From assembly GCF_012910805.1 (NCBI RefSeq), contig NZ_WTVK01000059.1, forward strand, positions 1-34,508: DNA of 34,508 bases. The letters run 5' to 3'. Shown here in pieces: positions 25,228 to 34,492 of this stretch. This DNA comes from Aromatoleum evansii. GTDB lineage: Bacteria; Pseudomonadota; Gammaproteobacteria; Burkholderiales; Rhodocyclaceae. The position numbers were made by a program, and so were the translations under genes. Position 1 is the stretch's first letter; each line of letters opens with the position of its first letter. A model generated the notes under the pieces. It saw only the letters and a program-made list of their open reading frames with translations. It did no database searches and was not told where the DNA came from.

Positions 25228-26388
25228 ATGGAAAAACCCACGGATGCGACCGCCGCGTGCAACACCACCGACGCCGCTCGCGTCACCGCGCTGATCAACC
25301 GCTCGCCGGTGGTGGCGATCGAGTGGCGCAACCAGCCCGGCTGGCCCGTCGCCTTCGTCAGCGACGGCATCGCGCAGTGGGGCTATGACCGCGATGACTT
25401 CATCTCCGGCAGGATCCAGTACGCAGATCTGATCCATGCCGACGACCGCCCGCGCATCGAGCACGACGTCGCCGAACATCTCGCCAACGGGCCCGACGAC
25501 TACCGCCAGGAATACCGCATCCGCACCGCCTCCGGCACCTGGGTGTGGCTGGACGACCGCACCTGGCTCACGCGCAACGAACGCGGCGAAGTCACCGACA
25601 TCCACGGCGTGCTGCTCGATATCACCGCAACCAAGGCGGCCGAGGCCGAGGTGCGCCGCCTCAACGCGACGCTGGAAGACCGCGTCGCCGAACGCACCGC
25701 CCAGCTGCAGGCCGCCAACCAGGAACTGAGGTCGTTTTCCTACACCGTGTCGCACGACCTCAAGGCGCCGTTGCGCGGCATCGAGGGCTACAGCCAACTG
25801 CTGCTCGAGCAGTACCGCGACCGCCTCGACGAGGACGGCCGCCACTTCCTCACGAGCATCCGCCGCGGCGCGCTGCACATGCACGAGTTGATCGAGGATC
25901 TGCTCGCCTACTCGCGCATCGAACGCCAGGCGCTGGATGTGCGCAGCGTGGACCTGCCCGCCGCCGTGCGCGGCGTGCTCGACGGCTTCGCGCACGAGAT
26001 CCAGACGCGCGGCGTCGAGGTCGTCATCAGGGAACTGCCGCCGCAGATCCGCACCGACCCGAGCGGGCTCACCCTGGTGCTGCGCAACCTCGTCAGCAAC
26101 GCGCTCAAATTCACGCGCGACACGCCGACCCCGCGCATCACGATAGATGCGTACCGTCAAGACCGTCACATCGTCCTGACGGTGGCCGACAATGGCGTCG
26201 GTTTCGACATGAAGTATCATGATCGCATCTTCGAGATATTCCAGCGTCTGCATCGCGCCGAGGACTACCCCGGCACCGGCATCGGGCTGGCGCTGGTACG
26301 CAAGGCGCTGCAGCGCATCGGTGGAACGGTGTGGGCGGTCAGCGAACCCGGCCAGGGCGCGACCTTCCACGTGGAGCTTCGGCAATGA
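25228..26388 (+). CDS. PAS-domain sensor histidine kinase
   Basis: A 386-residue soluble kinase. A PAS domain with PAC end (about 20-140; VLLDITATKAAEAE) joins a coiled coil (LNATLEDRVAERTAQLQ) to HisKA with SHDLKAPLRG (His176). HATPase_c follows with N-box NLVSNALKF, DNGVGFD and GTGIGLALV. The sequence resembles the output half of phytochrome-type kinases (YTVSHDLKAPLRGIEGYSQLL), but no GAF/PHY chromophore domain is present. The stop overlaps the next start (ATGA), so the response regulator behind it is the likely partner. Confidence 0.93.
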   Translation: MEKPTDATAACNTTDAARVTALINRSPVVAIEWRNQPGWPVAFVSDGIAQWGYDRDDFISGRIQYADLIHADDRPRIEHDVAEHLANGPDDYRQEYRIRTASGTWVWLDDRTWLTRNERGEVTDIHGVLLDITATKAAEAEVRRLNATLEDRVAERTAQLQAANQELRSFSYTVSHDLKAPLRGIEGYSQLLLEQYRDRLDEDGRHFLTSIRRGALHMHELIEDLLAYSRIERQALDVRSVDLPAAVRGVLDGFAHEIQTRGVEVVIRELPPQIRTDPSGLTLVLRNLVSNALKFTRDTPTPRITIDAYRQDRHIVLTVADNGVGFDMKYHDRIFEIFQRLHRAEDYPGTGIGLALVRKALQRIGGTVWAVSEPGQGATFHVELRQ

Positions 26389-26819
26389 CAGGCGAGCATG
26401 CCCCACGCAGCATCCTGCTGGTCGAGGACAATCCCGTCGACCTCGACCTCGCGCTGCGCGCCTTCGCCCGCCGCGGCCCGGACTGCTGCGCAATCGAGGT
26501 CGCACGCGACGGCGAAGAGGCGCTCGCCTTCATCCGCCGCTGGGAACAGGGACACGCGCCGCCGGCCCTGGTGCTGCTGGACATCAAGCTGCCGCGCGTG
26601 AATGGCCTGGAAGTGCTGCGCCAGCTCAAGTCGCACCCGCACTTCGGCTACATCCCGGTGGTGATGCTCACGACTTCGGGCGAGGACGCCGACCTCGGCC
26701 AGGCCTACGAGCTCGGCGCCAATTCCTACATCATCAAACCGGTCAATTTCGCGCGCTTCATCGAAGTGACCGAACAGATCGAGCAATACTGGTGCCTGCT
26801 GAACGCCCTTCCGAACTAG
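26385..26819 (+). CDS. Single-domain response regulator
   Basis: A 144-residue CheY-like receiver of the Rcp1 type found with phytochrome-like kinases. ILLVEDNPVDLDL provides the acidic pair, Asp66 in LVLLDIKLPRVNG is the phosphate acceptor, MLTTSG holds the conserved Thr, and YIIKPVNF the Lys. No output domain is present, so it acts by protein contact. ATG 26385 overlaps the kinase stop. The next gene begins inside its end. Confidence 0.94.
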   Translation: MTGEHAPRSILLVEDNPVDLDLALRAFARRGPDCCAIEVARDGEEALAFIRRWEQGHAPPALVLLDIKLPRVNGLEVLRQLKSHPHFGYIPVVMLTTSGEDADLGQAYELGANSYIIKPVNFARFIEVTEQIEQYWCLLNALPN

Positions 26820-29800
26820 GCGGGCTGCGCGTCCTCTACGTCGAGGACAATGCCGCCGACGCCGACCTCGCGCAGCGCATGCTCGCGCGCGCCGCGCCGG
26901 ACATCGCGCTCGATGTCGTGCCCGCACAGGACGCGGCGCTCGCCCGGCTGTCGGGGCCGCTGCCTTATGACGTGCTGCTGTCGGACCTGCGGCTGGCCGG
27001 CGGATCGGGCCTGGAGCTGCTCGCCGAGGTGCGCCGGCGCCAGCTGCCGCTGGCCGTCGTGATGCTCACCGGCTCGGGCGACCAGGTCGCCGCGCTGGCG
27101 GCGCTGAAGGCCGGTGCCGACGGCTACGTGGTCAAACGCGGCGACTACCTCGCACAGCTGCCGACGACGCTGCGCACCGCCTTCGCGCGTTTCCTCGCCG
27201 AACCGGGGCGGCGGCTGCCGCCCTTGCGCGTCCTGTACGGCGAACACGACAACCGCCGCGCGACGCTGACACGGCAGCACCTGGCCCGCCACGTGCCGCA
27301 CATCCGTCTCGACGTCGTTCCCGATGCGGCCGCGATCCTCGCCGCCGTGCCGCCGGACCCGGCACAGCCGCCCGACTTCGACGTCCTGCTGCTCGACACC
27401 GGCATCGGCGGCATGGACGGCCTCGAGCTGGTGCGCGTGCTGCGCGAGCAGCGCGGCCTTGCGCGCCCCATCGTGCTGCTGACCGGCGGCAGCGGCGAGG
27501 AGGTCGCAGCCCAGGCCCTGAACAGCGGTGTGAGCGACTGCATCGCGCGCTACGAGGGTTATCTCAACGCCTTGCCCGCCACCCTGGAAAAAGTGCGCGA
27601 GCAGGCCGAGCTGTTGCGCGAACGCGCCGAATTGCGGGCCACCAGCGCGCACCTCTCCCATCTCATGTCGGCCAGCCCGGTCGTCCTGTACACCCTGGGC
27701 ATGCACGACGGCAGCCTTGTCGCGACCTGGGTCAGCGCGAACGTGGAGCGCATCGCCGGCAGCCCCCTCGACGAGGTCATGGCCCCGGGATGGTGGCTCA
27801 CCCACCTGCACCCCGCCGACCGCAAGGCCGTGCTCGATGCGCAGGCCGGCCTGCTGCGCGACGGATGGCTCGACCACGAATACCGCTTCGTCGCCGACGA
27901 CGGGCGCGTGATCTGGATCCGCGACCAGATGCGCGTGATGCGCACGGACGACGAGGGGCCGCTAGAAGTGGTAGGCACCTGGACCGACATCACCGCCTCC
28001 AAGAAGGCCGAACAGCTCAAGGCCGCGCGCGGTTCCGTGCTCAACCGCCTGGTCGCGGGAGATCCGCTGGCGGTGATCCTCGAAGACGTCGCGCAACGCC
28101 TCGAACAGCTCGAACCGGAGATGCGCGCCTCCATCCTGCTGCTCGACCCGGTTAGCGGCCGCTTCACGCAGAGCGCCGCACCGCGCATGCCCGATTACTA
28201 CCGCGAGGCGATCGAGCAGCTGCCACCCCGCGAGGGCATGGGCTCCTGCGGCACGGCCGCGGCGCGGGGCGAGGCCGTGTTCGCCGTCGACGTGACGACC
28301 GACGCCAACTGGGTACCATTCCGCGACATCGCCGCGCGTGTCGGCTTCCGTGCCTGCTGGTCCTTTCCCTTCCGCGATGCGGGGAGCAGCGTGCTCGGCA
28401 CCTTCGCCGTCTACTTTGACACCCCTCGCGACGCGGATGCCGATCTTGTCGCGATCATCGACGAATTCACCGCGATCACCGCGCTTGCGGTACAGAAGGT
28501 GCGCGCAGACGACGCGCTCCGCCAGGCTGCCGCGGTGATCGAGAGCACCCGCGACGGCGTCATGATCACGGACCTCGAGCGGCGCATCGTCAGCGTCAAC
28601 CGCGCCTGGTGCGAGATGACGGGCTTCTCGCGCGACCAGGCGATCGGCCGTGCGCCGCAGATGCTCAAGTCCGGCCTGCAGAACGACGCCTTCTACCGCG
28701 GCATGTGGGAACAGATCATGCGCACCGGCGACTGGCAGGGGGAACTGTGGAACCGGCGCAGGAACGGCGAGCTGTACCCGCAGTGGCTCAGCATCAGCAC
28801 CGTCTATGACGAGGAGCGCCGCCCGACGCACTACGTCGGGGTCACGACCGACATCAGCAAGCTCAAGCAGTCCGAGGCCCAGCTCGAACACCTCGCGCAC
28901 CACGACCCGCTCACCGAACTGCCCAACCGCCTGCTCGTGCAATCGCGCCTGGAGCACGGCATCGAGCGCGCCGCGCGCCAGGACGGGCACATCGGCGTGC
29001 TGTTCATCGACCTCGACCGCTTCAAGACCATCAACGACAGCCTCGGCCACCGCGCCGGCGACGAGGCGCTGATCGCGATCGCGCAGCGCCTGCGCGGCTG
29101 CCTGCAGCAGGACGACACGTTGGCGCGCTGGGGCGGCGACGAATTCCTCGTCATCCTCGAAAACCTCACCAAGCCGGACGAGGCGGCCCACGCGGCACAG
29201 ACGCTGATCGACCAATTGCGCGAGCCGCTGCAGCTCGCCGACGGCCAGCCGGTGTACGTCGGGGCCAGCATCGGCGTGAGCATGTATCCGCAGGATGCGC
29301 GCACCGCGGCCGTGCTGATCCAGCACGCGGATACCGCACTGAACCAGGCCAAGGCGCAGGGACGCAACACCTACCGCTTCTTCACCGACGCGATGAGCGT
29401 CGAGGCGCAACGCCACCTGAACCTCGAGCGGCGGCTGCGCCATGCCCTCGAACACGAGCGTTTCGTGCTGCACTACCAGCCGCAGGTCGACATCGCCAGC
29501 GGGCGCATCGTCGGCTGCGAGGCCTTGCTGCGCTGGAACGATGCCGACGAAGGCCTGGTGCCGCCGGGACGCTTCATCCCCTTCGCCGAGGAGAGCGGCC
29601 TGATCGTGCCGATCGGGGAGTGGGCACTGCATTCGGCCTGCCTGCAGGCGCGCCGCTGGGCCGACGCCGGTCTGCCGCCGCTGCAGGTGTCGGTGAACCT
29701 GTCGGCGCGCCAGCTGTGGCAGGCCGAGCTGCCCGACCGCATCGCCGCGATCCTGAAGGACACCGGCCTGCCGCCGCAGGCGCTGGAACTCGAGCTTACC

Positions 29801-30181
29801 GAGAGCATGATCATGGGCCACGAGGCGCAGGCCGTCGAACGCCTCGGCCAGCTGCGCAGCATGGGCCTGCGGCTCGCGATCGACGACTTCGGTACCGGCT
29901 ATTCCTCGCTGTCCTACCTGAAGAACCTGCCGATCGAGGTACTCAAGATCGACCAGAGCTTCGTGCGCAACATCCCGCAGGACCGCAACGACATGGAGAT
30001 CGCCGGCGGCATCATCGCGCTCGCGCGCAAGCTCAACCTCGCCGTGACCGCCGAAGGCGTCGAGACCGCCGCCCAGCTCGCCTTCCTCGCCGGGCAGGGC
30101 TGCGACAAGTACCAGGGCTACCTGTTCAGCCGCCCGCTGCCGGCCGGGGAGTTCGAGAAGCTGCTGCGCGCCCGGCAGTGA
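26792..30181 (+). CDS. REC-REC-PAS-GAF-PAS-GGDEF-EAL c-di-GMP protein
   Basis: A 1129-residue soluble protein. REC1 (about 8-130) has VEDNAADADL, Asp65 and YVVKRGDY. REC2 (about 143-265) has Asp202 but reads GEHDN in place of the acidic pair and Arg for the conserved Lys (CIARYEGY), so it may be a pseudo-receiver. PAS, GAF (about 410-560), a second PAS and GGDEF follow (GGDEF 781-785); the I-site RxxD is QQDD here, so lost. EAL 910-912 with ELTES, DDFGTGYSS, LKIDQSFV and TAEGVET is an intact phosphodiesterase. Probably it breaks c-di-GMP, with GGDEF as GTP-binding or weak cyclase part. The frame is open upstream to 26219 without any Met after the start of that stretch. GTG 26792, inside the end of the response regulator gene, is the best start. 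Confidence 0.9.
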   Translation: MPAERPSELGGLRVLYVEDNAADADLAQRMLARAAPDIALDVVPAQDAALARLSGPLPYDVLLSDLRLAGGSGLELLAEVRRRQLPLAVVMLTGSGDQVAALAALKAGADGYVVKRGDYLAQLPTTLRTAFARFLAEPGRRLPPLRVLYGEHDNRRATLTRQHLARHVPHIRLDVVPDAAAILAAVPPDPAQPPDFDVLLLDTGIGGMDGLELVRVLREQRGLARPIVLLTGGSGEEVAAQALNSGVSDCIARYEGYLNALPATLEKVREQAELLRERAELRATSAHLSHLMSASPVVLYTLGMHDGSLVATWVSANVERIAGSPLDEVMAPGWWLTHLHPADRKAVLDAQAGLLRDGWLDHEYRFVADDGRVIWIRDQMRVMRTDDEGPLEVVGTWTDITASKKAEQLKAARGSVLNRLVAGDPLAVILEDVAQRLEQLEPEMRASILLLDPVSGRFTQSAAPRMPDYYREAIEQLPPREGMGSCGTAAARGEAVFAVDVTTDANWVPFRDIAARVGFRACWSFPFRDAGSSVLGTFAVYFDTPRDADADLVAIIDEFTAITALAVQKVRADDALRQAAAVIESTRDGVMITDLERRIVSVNRAWCEMTGFSRDQAIGRAPQMLKSGLQNDAFYRGMWEQIMRTGDWQGELWNRRRNGELYPQWLSISTVYDEERRPTHYVGVTTDISKLKQSEAQLEHLAHHDPLTELPNRLLVQSRLEHGIERAARQDGHIGVLFIDLDRFKTINDSLGHRAGDEALIAIAQRLRGCLQQDDTLARWGGDEFLVILENLTKPDEAAHAAQTLIDQLREPLQLADGQPVYVGASIGVSMYPQDARTAAVLIQHADTALNQAKAQGRNTYRFFTDAMSVEAQRHLNLERRLRHALEHERFVLHYQPQVDIASGRIVGCEALLRWNDADEGLVPPGRFIPFAEESGLIVPIGEWALHSACLQARRWADAGLPPLQVSVNLSARQLWQAELPDRIAAILKDTGLPPQALELELTESMIMGHEAQAVERLGQLRSMGLRLAIDDFGTGYSSLSYLKNLPIEVLKIDQSFVRNIPQDRNDMEIAGGIIALARKLNLAVTAEGVETAAQLAFLAGQGCDKYQGYLFSRPLPAGEFEKLLRARQ

Positions 30182-30248: not shown

Positions 30249-30283
30249 AATGGAATAATCAATGCCTTTTGCATTATTCCATT
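30249..30283. promoter_or_regulatory. AT-rich inverted repeat before the ynb-like operon
   Basis: AATGGAATAAT (30249-30259) and ATTATTCCATT (30273-30283) are perfect 11-bp arms with a 13-base spacer. The right arm ends three bases before the ATG at 30287. Nested AATGC/GCATT pairs lie in the spacer region (30261-30275). A TTGGCA (30238-30243) could be a -35 box, but no -10 at the right distance is evident. No ribosome site is seen. As DNA it could bind a repressor; as RNA it could block translation. Confidence 0.6.
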
Positions 30284-30286
30284 CAC

Positions 30287-30907
30287 ATGTTCAGCATCTA
30301 CCAGGCGAAGGCGCGCTTCCAGGACATCCTGCGCCCCCTCGTCACACGCCTGGCGCGCGCGGGCGTCACAGCCAATGCGGTCACCCTGCTCGCCGCCACG
30401 CTGTCCTGCCTGCTGGGGGCCGCACTGCTCCTCGCCCCGACGCCGGCGTACTTCCTGCTGCTGGCGCCGTTCATGCTGCTGCGCATGGCGCTCAACGCCA
30501 TCGACGGCATGCTCGCGCGGGAATTCGGCCAACGCTCGGCACTCGGCGCCTACCTCAATGAACTGACCGACGTCGTCTCCGACGCCGCCCTGTATCTGCC
30601 TTTCGTCGCCGTCGCGCCGTTCGGCTGGAGCAGCGTCGGCGCCGTGATCTTCCTCGCCGCGCTGTCGGAGATGGCCGGCGCCCTCGCGTCCGCCGTCGGC
30701 GCCGCTCGCCGCTACGACGGCCCCATGGGCAAGAGCGACCGCGCCGCCGTGTTCGGCGCCCTCGGCCTGTGGCTGGGCATCGCCGGCACGCTGCCGCACT
30801 GGGCGTTCTGGCTCATGCCCCTCGTGGCCTTCGCCACCGCCCTCAACATCGTCAATCGCGTGCGCGGCGGCCTGCGCGAACTCACCCTGCAAGGAGCACC
30901 CCTGTAA
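30287..30907 (+). CDS. CDP-alcohol phosphatidyltransferase family protein (YnbA-like)
   Basis: A 206-residue membrane enzyme family that joins the phosphatidyl group of a CDP-lipid to an alcohol. About six membrane helices are seen. The family motif D-x2-DG-x2-AR-x8-G-x3-D-x3-D reads N70-AI-DG-ML-AR ... G87-AYL-N91-ELT-D95. Asn thus stands at the first and third Asp positions, while the second (D73) and fourth (D95) remain, and D99 follows. The Asp residues bind metal and substrate in characterised members, so either the chemistry differs or the protein is a variant. The start ATG 30287 lacks a ribosome site and lies next to an inverted repeat. The next gene begins one base after its stop codon. 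Confidence 0.88.
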   Translation: MFSIYQAKARFQDILRPLVTRLARAGVTANAVTLLAATLSCLLGAALLLAPTPAYFLLLAPFMLLRMALNAIDGMLAREFGQRSALGAYLNELTDVVSDAALYLPFVAVAPFGWSSVGAVIFLAALSEMAGALASAVGAARRYDGPMGKSDRAAVFGALGLWLGIAGTLPHWAFWLMPLVAFATALNIVNRVRGGLRELTLQGAPL

Positions 30908-32665
30908 ATGACCCCGGCACGTCAGGCCCACGAGTGCAGCTTCCTCACGCACGACGGCACCAGCCTCTTCTATCGCCGCTGGCCGGCGACGACGGCACGC
31001 CGCGGCGCCATCGTCCTGTTCCATCGCGGCCACGAGCACTCCGGCCGCATGGCGCATCTGGTCGATGAGCTCGATCTGCCCGATTTCGACTTCTATGCCT
31101 GGGATGCGCGCGGCCACGGGCTGTCGCCCGGCGTGCGCGGATTCTCGCCGAGCTTCGGCACCTCGGTGCGCGACGTGCAGACCTTCATCGACCACCTGTG
31201 CGCCGGCTACGCGCTGCGGCCCGAAGACATCGGCGTGGTGGCGCAGAGCGTCGGCGCGGTCACGGTCGCCACCTGGGTGCACGACTATGCCCCCTGCATC
31301 CGCTGCCTCGCGCTCGCCTCGCCTGCCTTCAAGGTCAAGCTCTACGTGCCCTTCGCCCGCACCGGCCTGCGCTGGCTGCAGGCCCTGCGCGGCAACTTCT
31401 TCGTCAACAGCTACGTCAAGTCCAGATTCCTCACCCACGACCGCGAACGGCAGCGCTCCTACGACCACGATCCGCTGATCACGCGCCCGATCTCGGTGAA
31501 TATCCTGCTCGGCCTGTACGACGCGGCCGAGCGTGTGGTCGCGGATGCGCAGGCAATCACCGTGCCGACGCAATTGCTCATCTCGGGCGCCGACTGGGTC
31601 GTGCACCACCGCCCGCAGCATGAATTCTTCGCCCGCCTGGGTGCGCAGGTGAAGGAAAAGCACGTCCTCGACGGCTTCTTCCACGACACCCTCGGCGAAG
31701 CCGGACGCGCCGAGGCCGTCGCCGAGCTGCGCCGCTTCATCGGCGAGCGCTTCGCCGCCGCCCCCGTCACGGCCGACCTGCGCCAGGCCGACCGCAGCGG
31801 CCCGACGCACGACGAGGCCACGGCCCTGGCGCGCCCGCTCTCGCCCTTCAGCCCGCGCGGCGCCTACTGGGCGCTGTACCGGCAAGCCATGAAACTGGGC
31901 GGGCTGCTCGCCGACGGCGTGCGGTTGGGACACCGCACCGGCTTCGACTCGGGCAGCACGCTCGACTACGTGTACCGCAACACTCCCTCCGGGCGCGGCC
32001 CCCTCGGCCGCCTCATGGACCGCAACTACCTCGATGCAATCGGCTGGAAGGGCATCCGCCAGCGCAAGCTGCACCTCGAGGAACTGCTGCACAAGGCGAT
32101 GGACGCGCTGCACGCCACCGGACGCGCCGTGCACATCATGGACATCGCCGCCGGCCACGGCCGCTACGTGCTCGAAGCCTTGCAGCGGTCGCCCCGCAAG
32201 CCGGCCTCCGTCCTCCTCAGGGATTACAGCGACATCAACGTGCGCGACGGCCGCAAGCTGATCATGGAGAAGGGCCTCGCGACGGTCGCCCGCTTCGAAC
32301 AGGGCGACGCCTTCGACCGCAGCTCGCTCGCCAGCGTGGCCCCGCGCCCCTCGGTCGGCATCGTGTCGGGCCTGTACGAGCTCTTCCCCGAGAACGACGC
32401 GGTTACTCGCTCCCTGTCCGGACTCGCCGACGCCATCGAACCCGGCGGCTACCTGCTGTACACCGGGCAGCCCTGGCATCCCCAGCTCGAACTGATCGCG
32501 CGCGCACTGACCAGCCATCGCCAGGGCAAGGCCTGGGTCATGCGCCGCCGCACGCAGGCCGAGATGGACCAGCTGGTCGCGGCCGCCGGCTTCGAGAAGA
32601 TCGAGCAGCGCATCGACGAATGGGGCATCTTCACGGTCTCGCTGGCGCGCCGGGTCGCGGCATGA
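30908..32665 (+). CDS. Alpha/beta hydrolase fused to a SAM-dependent methyltransferase (YnbC-like)
   Basis: A 585-residue two-domain protein, the length I recall for E. coli YnbC. The N-terminal alpha/beta hydrolase (about 8-290) resembles monoacylglycerol lipases: FHRGHEHSGR near the oxyanion site, AWDARGHGLSPG, Ser114 in VAQSVGA (first Gly of GxSxG is Ala), Asp in ISGADWVVH and His in DGFFHD. The C-terminal domain (about 370-585) has HIMDIAAGHGRYVLEAL (Asp412), a motif I for SAM binding, then LRDYSDINVRDG and GLYELFPEN. It would trim an acyl chain or ester and methylate a product, but the substrate is unknown. It overlaps the next gene by four bases. Confidence 0.88.
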   Translation: MTPARQAHECSFLTHDGTSLFYRRWPATTARRGAIVLFHRGHEHSGRMAHLVDELDLPDFDFYAWDARGHGLSPGVRGFSPSFGTSVRDVQTFIDHLCAGYALRPEDIGVVAQSVGAVTVATWVHDYAPCIRCLALASPAFKVKLYVPFARTGLRWLQALRGNFFVNSYVKSRFLTHDRERQRSYDHDPLITRPISVNILLGLYDAAERVVADAQAITVPTQLLISGADWVVHHRPQHEFFARLGAQVKEKHVLDGFFHDTLGEAGRAEAVAELRRFIGERFAAAPVTADLRQADRSGPTHDEATALARPLSPFSPRGAYWALYRQAMKLGGLLADGVRLGHRTGFDSGSTLDYVYRNTPSGRGPLGRLMDRNYLDAIGWKGIRQRKLHLEELLHKAMDALHATGRAVHIMDIAAGHGRYVLEALQRSPRKPASVLLRDYSDINVRDGRKLIMEKGLATVARFEQGDAFDRSSLASVAPRPSVGIVSGLYELFPENDAVTRSLSGLADAIEPGGYLLYTGQPWHPQLELIARALTSHRQGKAWVMRRRTQAEMDQLVAAAGFEKIEQRIDEWGIFTVSLARRVAA

Positions 32666-34026
32666 GCGACGCCGCCGAAGCGGCCCTGCCCGTCGCCGCG
32701 GCGGCGGACACGGGCCTGTGGAAGCGCAGCCTGCTGTGGCTGCTGTTCCTCGGGCCGTTCTTCTTCCTCAGCTACGGCTACGCCAATTCCCGCGCCGCCC
32801 TGTCGGGCGTCGCCACCTCGGTGGTGTTCGCGTGGGAAACGGCGATCCCCCTGCTACCCTGGACCATCGTTCCCTACTGGTCGATCGACCTGCTGTACGG
32901 CCTGGCCTTCCTCCTGTGCGCCAGCGCCCGCCAGGTCGATCGCCTCGCGCTGCGCCTGCTCACCGCTCAGCTCGTCTCGGTCGCCTGCTTCCTGCTCTTT
33001 CCGCTGCGTTTCGCCTTCGAGCGGCCGCCGATCGACGGGCCCTTCGGCGGGCTCTTCGACCTCCTCGCGGGCTTCGACAAACCCTACAACCAGGCGCCCT
33101 CGCTGCACATCGGCCTGCTCGTCATCCTGTGGGCGCGCTTCGCCGCCGGACGCCGCGGCCCCGCCCTGCTGTGCGTGCACGCGTGGGCCCTGCTCATCGG
33201 CGTGTCCGTCCTCACCACCTACCAGCACCATTTCATCGACGTCCCGACCGGGGCGCTGGTCGGCGCGCTGTGCCTGTGGCTGTGGCCGGACGAGGAAACG
33301 CCCCCACTTGCGGCCTGGCGCCTGACGCGCGACCCGCGCCGCCGGCAACTGGCGGCACGCTACCTGGCTGCCGCCGCCGCCCTCGGCGCAGTCGCCTTCG
33401 GCTGCGGCGGTGGCGGTGGCGCGCTGTGGCTGCTATGGGGAAGCGTCGCACTGTCGCTGACCGGGCTGTGCTACCTCGGCTTCGGCACTGCCGGCCTGCA
33501 GAAGACGCGCGGACGGCCATCGGTCGGCGCGGCCCTGCTGCTCGCCCCGTATATCGCCGGCGCATGGCTGAACGCGCGCCTGTGGACGCGGCGTCACCCC
33601 ACCCCCGACCACATCGCGGACGGCGTGCACGCAGGACGGCTGCCCGACGCCGGCAGCATGCGTGCCGGCGGATTCACCGGCCTGGTCGACCTGAGCGCCG
33701 AACTGCCCGCACCGCGGGGCCCGTGGCAATACACCGGCCTGCCCATGCTCGACCTGGTGGCGCCGACACCGCGCCAACTGCAGGACGCGGCACATCGCAT
33801 CGAACAGGCACGGCGCCACGGCCCGCTCCTGGTGTGCTGTGCGCTCGGCTACTCGCGCAGCGCCTGCGCCGTGGCCGCCTGGCTGGTGCTGACGGGACGC
33901 AGCCCGGACGTCGACCACGCCATCGCCACCTTGCGCCGCCAACGTCCACAGGTCGTCCTCGGTCCCGCACACCGGGCCGCCTTGCAGGCCTGCGCCGACG
34001 CACACCAGGATGTCCATGCCGCCTGA
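32662..34026 (+). CDS. PAP2-type phosphatase fused to a dual-specificity phosphatase (YnbD-like)
   Basis: A 454-residue membrane protein. The N-terminal part has several membrane helices with PAP2-like motifs: YNQAPSLH (His149) and YQHHFIDVPTG (His189-x3-Asp193). A further helical region (about 225-310) follows. The C-terminal domain is a cysteine phosphatase: VDLSAELP with the likely acid Asp, and C393-ALGYS-R399 (C-x5-R). Two different phosphatase types in one chain could remove phosphates from a lipid precursor on either side of the membrane. ATG 32662 overlaps the stop of the YnbC-like gene (ATGA); an in-frame start at 32620 is less likely. Confidence 0.88.
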   Translation: MSDAAEAALPVAAAADTGLWKRSLLWLLFLGPFFFLSYGYANSRAALSGVATSVVFAWETAIPLLPWTIVPYWSIDLLYGLAFLLCASARQVDRLALRLLTAQLVSVACFLLFPLRFAFERPPIDGPFGGLFDLLAGFDKPYNQAPSLHIGLLVILWARFAAGRRGPALLCVHAWALLIGVSVLTTYQHHFIDVPTGALVGALCLWLWPDEETPPLAAWRLTRDPRRRQLAARYLAAAAALGAVAFGCGGGGGALWLLWGSVALSLTGLCYLGFGTAGLQKTRGRPSVGAALLLAPYIAGAWLNARLWTRRHPTPDHIADGVHAGRLPDAGSMRAGGFTGLVDLSAELPAPRGPWQYTGLPMLDLVAPTPRQLQDAAHRIEQARRHGPLLVCCALGYSRSACAVAAWLVLTGRSPDVDHAIATLRRQRPQVVLGPAHRAALQACADAHQDVHAA

Positions 34027-34492
34027 TTCCGCCGATCGCCTGCACGACGCGGCGCGCGCACGGGTGGCGGCCGCGATGCTGTCAACCGGCAGCGTCCTCG
34101 ACGCATGGAGCCGGACGCTGGTGCTGCCGGCGCTGCTGTGGCCGGCCATCGAGCGGCCGGAAGGGATGGTGCTCGGCGCGTTCGCACTATCCTTGTGCGC
34201 AGCGGCGGCGCAGGCCTTCTGCGCCTGGCGCACGCGCCTGGACACGGCGATCTTCTCAGGCTGGGCGAGCGCCTGGAGCCGTCCGTCCGGCCTTCTGCCC
34301 GCCGACGACCTGCGGCTTTTCGACCGCGCACTCGCGGACTGGACGCAGTCACGCGCGGCAACCGGCGACTGTCGTCCGCTGGATGCCCGCCTGCACGGCG
34401 CGCGCCGCCTGCTCGCACGGCAGGCGATGTGGCTCTCGCTCCAGGCCGCGACCTTGCTGGGCACCGTGCTGCTGGTCGCCGCGACCGCCTGA
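34016..34492 (+). CDS. Small membrane protein, last gene seen of the ynb-like operon
   Basis: A 158-residue protein with about three hydrophobic segments: TLVLPALLWPAI and GMVLGAFALSLCAAAAQAF in the first half and SLQAATLLGTVLLVAA at the C-terminus. I do not recognise the family. It overlaps the phosphatase gene by 11 bases, so it belongs to the same transcript. ATG 34016 has AGGA 5 bases upstream; ATG 34010 is the other possible start. A CDP-diglyceride synthase (YnbB-type) is not in the window and might follow. Confidence 0.75.
   Translation: MPPDSADRLHDAARARVAAAMLSTGSVLDAWSRTLVLPALLWPAIERPEGMVLGAFALSLCAAAAQAFCAWRTRLDTAIFSGWASAWSRPSGLLPADDLRLFDRALADWTQSRAATGDCRPLDARLHGARRLLARQAMWLSLQAATLLGTVLLVAATA

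Follow-up and report, generated by a model that had tools for sequence, protein, structure and literature searches.

The ynb-type gene cluster of Aromatoleum evansii as most of a conserved six-gene set, a putative pathway for a membrane lipid

The closest described relative of the locus treated here is the ynbABCD cluster of Escherichia coli K-12 (b1408-b1411), in which the genes run ynbA-ynbB-ynbC-ynbD. E. coli YnbD was counted as a putative PAP2 protein, with the authors stating that no function had been ascribed to it (PMC7413402). The ynbA gene is activated by BglJ-RcsB, as cited in PMC12871917, and is listed in the table of a cyclic di-GMP screen (PMC13031359), and a choline phosphotransferase annotation was removed (PMC3781023). 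The ynbB gene was among those depleted in a strain with only phosphoglyceride-linked enterobacterial common antigen (ECA-PG) and was not needed for ECA-PG (PMC8609368), and polyphosphate was reported in a ynbC disruptant and not in the Keio deletion (PMC2435150). Searches of the literature with the gene and family names returned such mentions from expression studies and screens and no product, as an earlier sequence-only reading of the present locus had supposed, most subscription papers lying outside the search. Here we describe a cluster of this type at the end of a 34,508-nucleotide stretch of Aromatoleum evansii DNA (NCBI RefSeq assembly GCF_012910805.1, contig NZ_WTVK01000059.1, forward strand; hereafter the window), which is an entire contig (C285).

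The window ends in four consecutive open reading frames (ORFs) on the plus strand (Table 1). Judged from sequence, the products of the first three are true orthologues of E. coli YnbA, YnbC and YnbD (46% identity for YnbA, 57.6% over 583 aa for YnbC and 38% for YnbD), encoded side by side, and a YnbB is encoded elsewhere in the same assembly. With a probability of about one half, the locus is read here as most of a conserved six-gene pathway, organized in two modules, which would make and then process a membrane lipid. The four genes had been taken for a ynb-type lipid operon in the order known from E. coli. The operon type was borne out by the orthology; the set is incomplete, since a plsC-type acyltransferase gene and ynbB also belong to it, and the order differs, because E. 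coli ynbB sits between ynbA and ynbC. Thus, the E. coli locus reads A-B-C-D and lacks plsC and the small gene, whereas the window reads A-C-D-small, with plsC-ynbB at the end of another contig.

The window stops at four genes because its contig ends there, the small gene terminating 16 bases short of the end. Two CTP_transf_1 genes are present in the genome, and the copy on contig C271 is the YnbB orthologue (39.9% identity to E. coli YnbB over 301 aa). It lies near the contig end and reads away from it, directly after the gene for a PlsC-type acyltransferase (PF01553, 1.1e-19), the ORF of which begins 35 bases from that end. The small gene and plsC lie 18 bases apart in L022, the closest relative. 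From these contig-end positions and this spacing, the ends of C285 and C271 are very likely adjacent in the genome, although no sequence spans the junction. At the C271 end (L016:15042-15059), a sequence was found that, compared by eye and with one mismatch, resembles what we take to be the Nextera transposase adapter. Such an end would explain the broken assembly, and is probably an artefact that split the operon.

To place the locus among its relatives, genomes of GTDB were scanned with a six-row YnbC alignment, which gave at least 553 relatives. The best 80 loci were kept, and genes were called in them with purpose-built profiles; these loci are the closest relatives and hence a biased set. 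The order ynbA-ynbC-ynbD-small-plsC-ynbB, into which the two contig ends of A. evansii fit, was found in 73 of the 80. Among the other seven, plsC and ynbB were swapped in two, plsC was undetected in one, the small gene was undetected in one, and three lay on contigs shorter than 8 kb (two showing A-C-D and one B-A-C-D). This order, together with the identity of YnbC over 583 aa, means that the likeness is not a matter of chance. The relatives include Rhodocyclaceae, Variovorax, Pseudomonas and the alphaproteobacteria Labrys and Reyranella, and their surroundings vary, no flanking gene family being common to more than 18 of the 80 loci.

A wider set consisted of every strong PF12147 place (E ≤1e-20) in samples of 274, 399 and 398 genomes, 60 places with the window excluded; weaker PF12147 matches of one sample were left out, and at least two of the 60 genomes are also among the 80. 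The stretch around these places contained ynbA in 54, ynbB in 52, ynbD in 52, the small gene in 46 and plsC in 45. The small gene was never present without ynbD, which occurred without it in six, and its product is therefore suggested to be a subunit or partner of YnbD. It had been regarded as a possible lineage-specific extra; it is instead a conserved component of the set, a companion of YnbD across the relatives. In two of the loci (L214 and L215), ynbA is opposed to ynbC, the Arg of the AR pair of its product is lost (MLAN, MLAT), and the small gene was undetected. No YnbA-like match was obtained in eight genus mates of the window genome, so the cluster is patchy. In E. coli, megablast covered 80% or more of ynbABCD in 4242 of 5426 complete genomes; 847 gave no match and a further 337 had no place covering 80%, and the genes seem to have been lost or broken in some lineages.

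The division into a presumed synthesis module (ynbA, plsC and ynbB) and a presumed processing module (ynbC, ynbD and the small gene) came from a single sample of the order (399 genomes), with the limit for a strong YnbB set at a visible gap in the scores. YnbA was present in 44 genomes, PF12147 in 34 and strong YnbB in 46. Every genome with PF12147 also had YnbA (34/34), and ten had YnbA without PF12147 (Fisher 1e-40, relatedness ignored); YnbA and strong YnbB occurred together in 40 genomes, with four and six exceptions, respectively (7e-44, relatedness again ignored). The neighbourhood survey that the sequence-only reading had proposed thus found that the genes do co-occur, with the YnbB-type cytidylyltransferase as part of the conserved set. 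All ten genomes with YnbA and without PF12147 (L238-L247) carry a locus of ynbA, plsC and ynbB, interrupted in L239 by one opposed ORF. Since ynbC was never found in a genome without YnbA, yet the triad stands without ynbC in ten, it is the processing module that needs the synthesis module and not the reverse. The triad and the C-D-small block also stand apart within single genomes (G376, L248 and L205; G477, L249 and L203). The plsC and ynbB genes form a tight pair: they are adjacent in all six genomes with strong YnbB and no YnbA, in three of which (L252, L254 and L257) a different CDP-alcohol phosphotransferase (CDP-AP) stands before them. They were likewise paired in all four places picked from a group of weaker YnbB (L258-L261), which had no YnbA or ynbC match nearby; there, the same CDP-lipid cassette may serve another purpose.

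Table 1. Genes of the ynb-type cluster in the window, with the basis of each assignment.
Gene	Position	Strand	Product and basis
ynbA	30287..30907	+	CDP-alcohol phosphotransferase with Asn-type site; ORF, PF01066, likeness to E. coli YnbA
ynbC	30908..32665	+	alpha/beta hydrolase fused to Methyltransf_20 S-adenosylmethionine (SAM)-dependent methyltransferase; ORF, Pfam, likeness to E. coli YnbC
ynbD	32662..34026	+	PAP2-like membrane domain fused to dual-specificity phosphatase; ORF, Pfam, likeness to E. coli YnbD
small gene	34016..34492 (ORF opens 34010)	+	158 aa from conserved start; probably membrane-bound YnbD companion

The spacings of 0, -4 and -11 bases given by the earlier reading hold, the last being counted from the second in-frame ATG of the small gene, which is its conserved start (M3 in 73 of 78 alignment rows). 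Its start of the first gene, at 30249, had to be moved to the position in Table 1, where the conserved N-terminus of the family begins; the ATG at 30250 is followed by a stop after one further codon. The domain calls stood for the CDP-alcohol transferase (PF01066, CDP-OH_P_transf, 34.5 bits, cut-off 22), for the hydrolase and methyltransferase of YnbC (PF12146, Hydrolase_4, E 4.7e-68; PF12147, Methyltransf_20, E 4e-152) and for the dual-specificity phosphatase (DSP) of YnbD (DSPc, 39.7 bits, cut-off 33.5), while the PAP2 half of YnbD fell just below threshold (25.3 bits, cut-off 27.2). The small ORF gave no Pfam match, and its alignment matched no PDB sequence.

Directly before the ynbA start, a perfect 11-base inverted repeat was seen by eye (arms 30249-30259 and 30273-30283), with no obvious ribosome-binding site between it and the start. 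It is a possible operator or leaderless promoter, and relatives showed no such repeat before ynbA. The large ORF directly upstream (26219-30181) appears by eye to be multi-domain and sensor-like, with GGDEF and EAL motifs.

The CDP-AP superfamily is described by the signature D1xxD2GxxAR...GxxxD3xxxD4, with eight absolutely conserved residues, of which D1-D3 bind metal and D4 is likely the base (PMC4634129). In the window YnbA, the corresponding residues are N70-x-x-D73-G ... N91-E92-x-x-D95, and K149, R152 and R191 are kept. An alignment of 150 rows was used, containing 147 distinct sequences with 43 to 77% identity to the window YnbA. Both D1 and D3 are Asn in 147/147 of these sequences, and the full signature is absent. 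The rest of the site is retained: D2 and the Glu beside the second Asn (E92) in 147, D4 in 146, the Arg of the AR pair in 145, and K149, R152 and R191 in 146 each. Other CDP-APs of the relatives carry Asp at both places in 25/25 proteins (motif open at both, 30 loci), and a motif demanding Asp at both found a match in 30/30 loci. A second Asn-type group consists of the CDP-APs standing before plsC-ynbB in three genomes without YnbA (L252:8850-9530, L254:5356-5994 and L257:8776-9486), which by eye have Asn at D1 and D3 and AV in place of the AR of the signature. In a tree of 16 Asn and 30 Asp rows, a single branch (99/96) sets the Asn rows apart from the Asp rows; the bootstrap of this tree was still unsettled, it contains long branches that meet, and its Asp rows were picked by the Asp-requiring motif.

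In the phosphatidylserine synthase MjPSS, changing these aspartates lowers or abolishes activity, and D62N is among the changes hardly or not rescued by extra Mg (PMC8633023); in our reading of the spacing, D62 would be D3. Given these mutants, the Asn pair leaves YnbA either dead or with a metal site built differently, and the former is made less likely by the conservation elsewhere in the site and by the genes dedicated to supply. Asn at both places hints at a changed metal chemistry or a changed donor, and E92, beside N91, may take over a metal contact. The closest solved relative of YnbA is the mycobacterial phosphatidylinositol phosphate synthase (PIPS; 1e-9). With this enzyme (Mt), its Renibacterium counterpart (Rs) and archaetidylinositol phosphate synthase, YnbA shares the family, the spacing of the signature, D2 and D4, and it differs from them in the Asn at D1 and D3. 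In PIPS, two arginines hold the phosphate of the acceptor, R155 and R195 in the mycobacterial protein and R153 and R191 in that of Renibacterium (PMC4634129). Both phosphate arginines of the Renibacterium enzyme align with YnbA R152 and R191; in the mycobacterial alignment, R195 falls on R191 and R155 lies one residue off R152. The aligned arginines suggest that the acceptor of YnbA carries a phosphate, which would fit with YnbD as the partner phosphatase.

The catalytic residues of YnbC (S114, D229 and H259) are kept in 85-86 of 86 rows. PAP2 proteins carry the motifs C1 (KX6RP), C2 (PSGH) and C3 (SRX5HX3D). The PAP2-like half of YnbD departs from them, with PSLH for C2, Val for the Arg of C3 and no C1 Lys seen by eye, and retains both His and the Asp of C2/C3 (H149, H189 and D193) in 83 of 84 rows. 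Its DSP half has the CX5R loop, with C393 in 82 and R399 in 81 of 84 rows (the remainder being gaps), and resembles small protein-tyrosine phosphatases, DUSP10 and PTPMT1 (PTPMT1 5.5e-9). PTPMT1 is a lipid-phosphate phosphatase that acts on phosphatidylglycerophosphate (PGP). With PTPMT1 and other DSPs, YnbD shares the catalytic loop and an Asp at the place of the general acid; unlike them, it carries a PAP2-like membrane domain in the same chain and has as its companion a small helical protein. For the latter, a confident all-helical model was predicted (mean predicted local distance difference test, pLDDT, 92.6), and R74, D78, D105 and R122 are invariant in 31 rows. The motifs of PlsC are kept in 78 of 79 rows, and YnbB shares with CdsA the CDP-diacylglycerol synthase signature (83 of 84), while its N-terminal half is unlike CdsA (PMC6362211).

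From the observed gene content, order, co-occurrence, module dependence, catalytic residues and Asn/Asn pair, we infer the following reactions, with their acceptor, membrane sides and order of processing. The dedicated PlsC-type acyltransferase would form a phosphatidic acid-type lipid, which YnbB would activate to a CDP-lipid. YnbA would move the phosphatidyl part of the CDP-lipid to a small, probably phosphorylated acceptor to yield a phosphatidyl-X-phosphate, from which the DSP half of YnbD would strip the phosphate. The PAP2-like half of YnbD may act on a lipid phosphate or headgroup, probably at the opposite face of the membrane, with the small protein as partner, and YnbC would deacylate or recycle the lipid and methylate it or a derivative. 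The published facts on YnbB and YnbD agree with a side pathway that has a CDP-lipid of its own. An unusual headgroup had been proposed; the lipid could instead be unusual in its hydrophobic part. In a more specific form, to which we give somewhat less than even odds, YnbA and its sister group would be an unrecognised Asn-type class of CDP-APs with an invariant Glu after the second Asn and its own PlsC/YnbB supply, making a new membrane lipid finished by YnbD, the small protein and YnbC. In such a lipid, the hydrophobic part, diacyl or otherwise, might be unusual, or the bond might be to a phosphate rather than a hydroxyl.

Several observations weigh against the six-gene pathway. All six genes were present in 41 of the 60 sampled places, a lower share than the 73 of 80 closest relatives, and plsC and the small gene are not at the locus in E. 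coli and in genome G198 (L021). Some genes are scattered: ynbC stands with none of the other five nearby in L209, L212 and L216, and ynbA likewise in L250 (G619) and L251 (G473). Four of the YnbA genomes among the 399 had no YnbB at the chosen limit, these four (L202, L204, L214 and L215) carrying a weaker YnbB-type gene at the locus. The match of R152 with R155 depends on the alignment, and for YnbA, YnbC and YnbD alike, the literature searched gives neither a product nor a substrate or an activity. By analogy with the loss of activity in MjPSS D62N (PMC8633023), YnbA might not be a transferase.

Carried to its end, this last point would make YnbA a CDP-lipid-binding sensor or scaffold, the real pathway being lipid turnover by YnbC and YnbD. 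The Asn at D1 and D3 throughout the family and the unrescued D62N enzyme favour this explanation, which we nevertheless consider unlikely: D2, D4, the AR pair, K149, R152 and R191 are near-invariant, unlike those of a decayed enzyme, the invariant E92 may supply the metal contact, and dedicated CDP-lipid genes travel with ynbA. The cluster could also serve MPIase, a role proposed for YnbB; this glycolipid, which has a pyrophosphate link, acts in the integration of membrane proteins. In E. coli, over-production of YnbB raised MPIase and YnbB cannot replace CdsA (PMC6362211; reviewed in PMC7018664), but deletion of ynbB did not significantly change MPIase (PMC6362211). The coupling of YnbB to plsC seen here is not discussed in the available parts of these two papers. 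As the genomic context ties YnbB to PlsC and the Asn-type CDP-AP, and MPIase leaves YnbC and YnbD unexplained, we regard this proposal as quite improbable.

A backup pathway for phosphatidylglycerol, with YnbA as a second PGP synthase and YnbD as the PGP phosphatase, would agree with the resemblance of the DSP half to PTPMT1 and with a weak pgsA match (18.7 bits for the window YnbA and 31 bits for E. coli YnbA, cut-off 109.1). The genome has an apparent PgsA of its own, however (CDP-AP match of 137 bits vs 35 for YnbA), and D1 and D3 are absent in every YnbA of the alignment. Moreover, E. coli YnbD failed to complement a PGP-phosphatase or C55-isoprenyl pyrophosphate (C55-PP)-phosphatase mutant (PMC7413402), which makes glycerol phosphate an unlikely acceptor and this pathway very unlikely. 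Least credible is a pathway to phosphatidylinositol of the kind known from actinobacteria or Bacteroides, with YnbA as PIPS and the DSP domain as its phosphatase: the best NCBIfam models (archaetidylinositol phosphate synthase, 62.3 bits, and PIPS, 49 bits) and the best PDB match point to it, but these scores lie far below the equivalog cut-offs (180 and 170, respectively), K135, which lies near the inositol ring (PMC4634129), is not kept in the alignments of YnbA to PIPS, and no match to inositol-phosphate synthase (PF01658) was obtained in the genome of the window or in the E. coli control, so that inositol is an unlikely acceptor.

The protein families of the cluster are already known and annotated. 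The six-gene unit, its two modules, the small companion protein of YnbD, the plsC-ynbB pair and the invariant Asn/Asn were not found in print, in searches not aimed at each of them separately. For the six-gene pathway, the survey yields a parts list, the direction of dependence between the modules and a testable oddity of the active site. A superfamily signature called absolutely conserved is altered identically in every YnbA examined, with the rest of the site kept, and YnbA is thus a natural variant that opens the roles of D1 and D3 to test. The gene of YnbB, which has been described as an MPIase enzyme, accompanies those of PlsC and an Asn-type transferase, so that the main role of YnbB may lie elsewhere. 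The ynbABCD genes are widespread in complete E. coli genomes, yet no product turned up in the literature searched; if YnbA does belong to an Asn-type class making a new lipid, the same lipid or a simpler version of it would be made in most E. coli.

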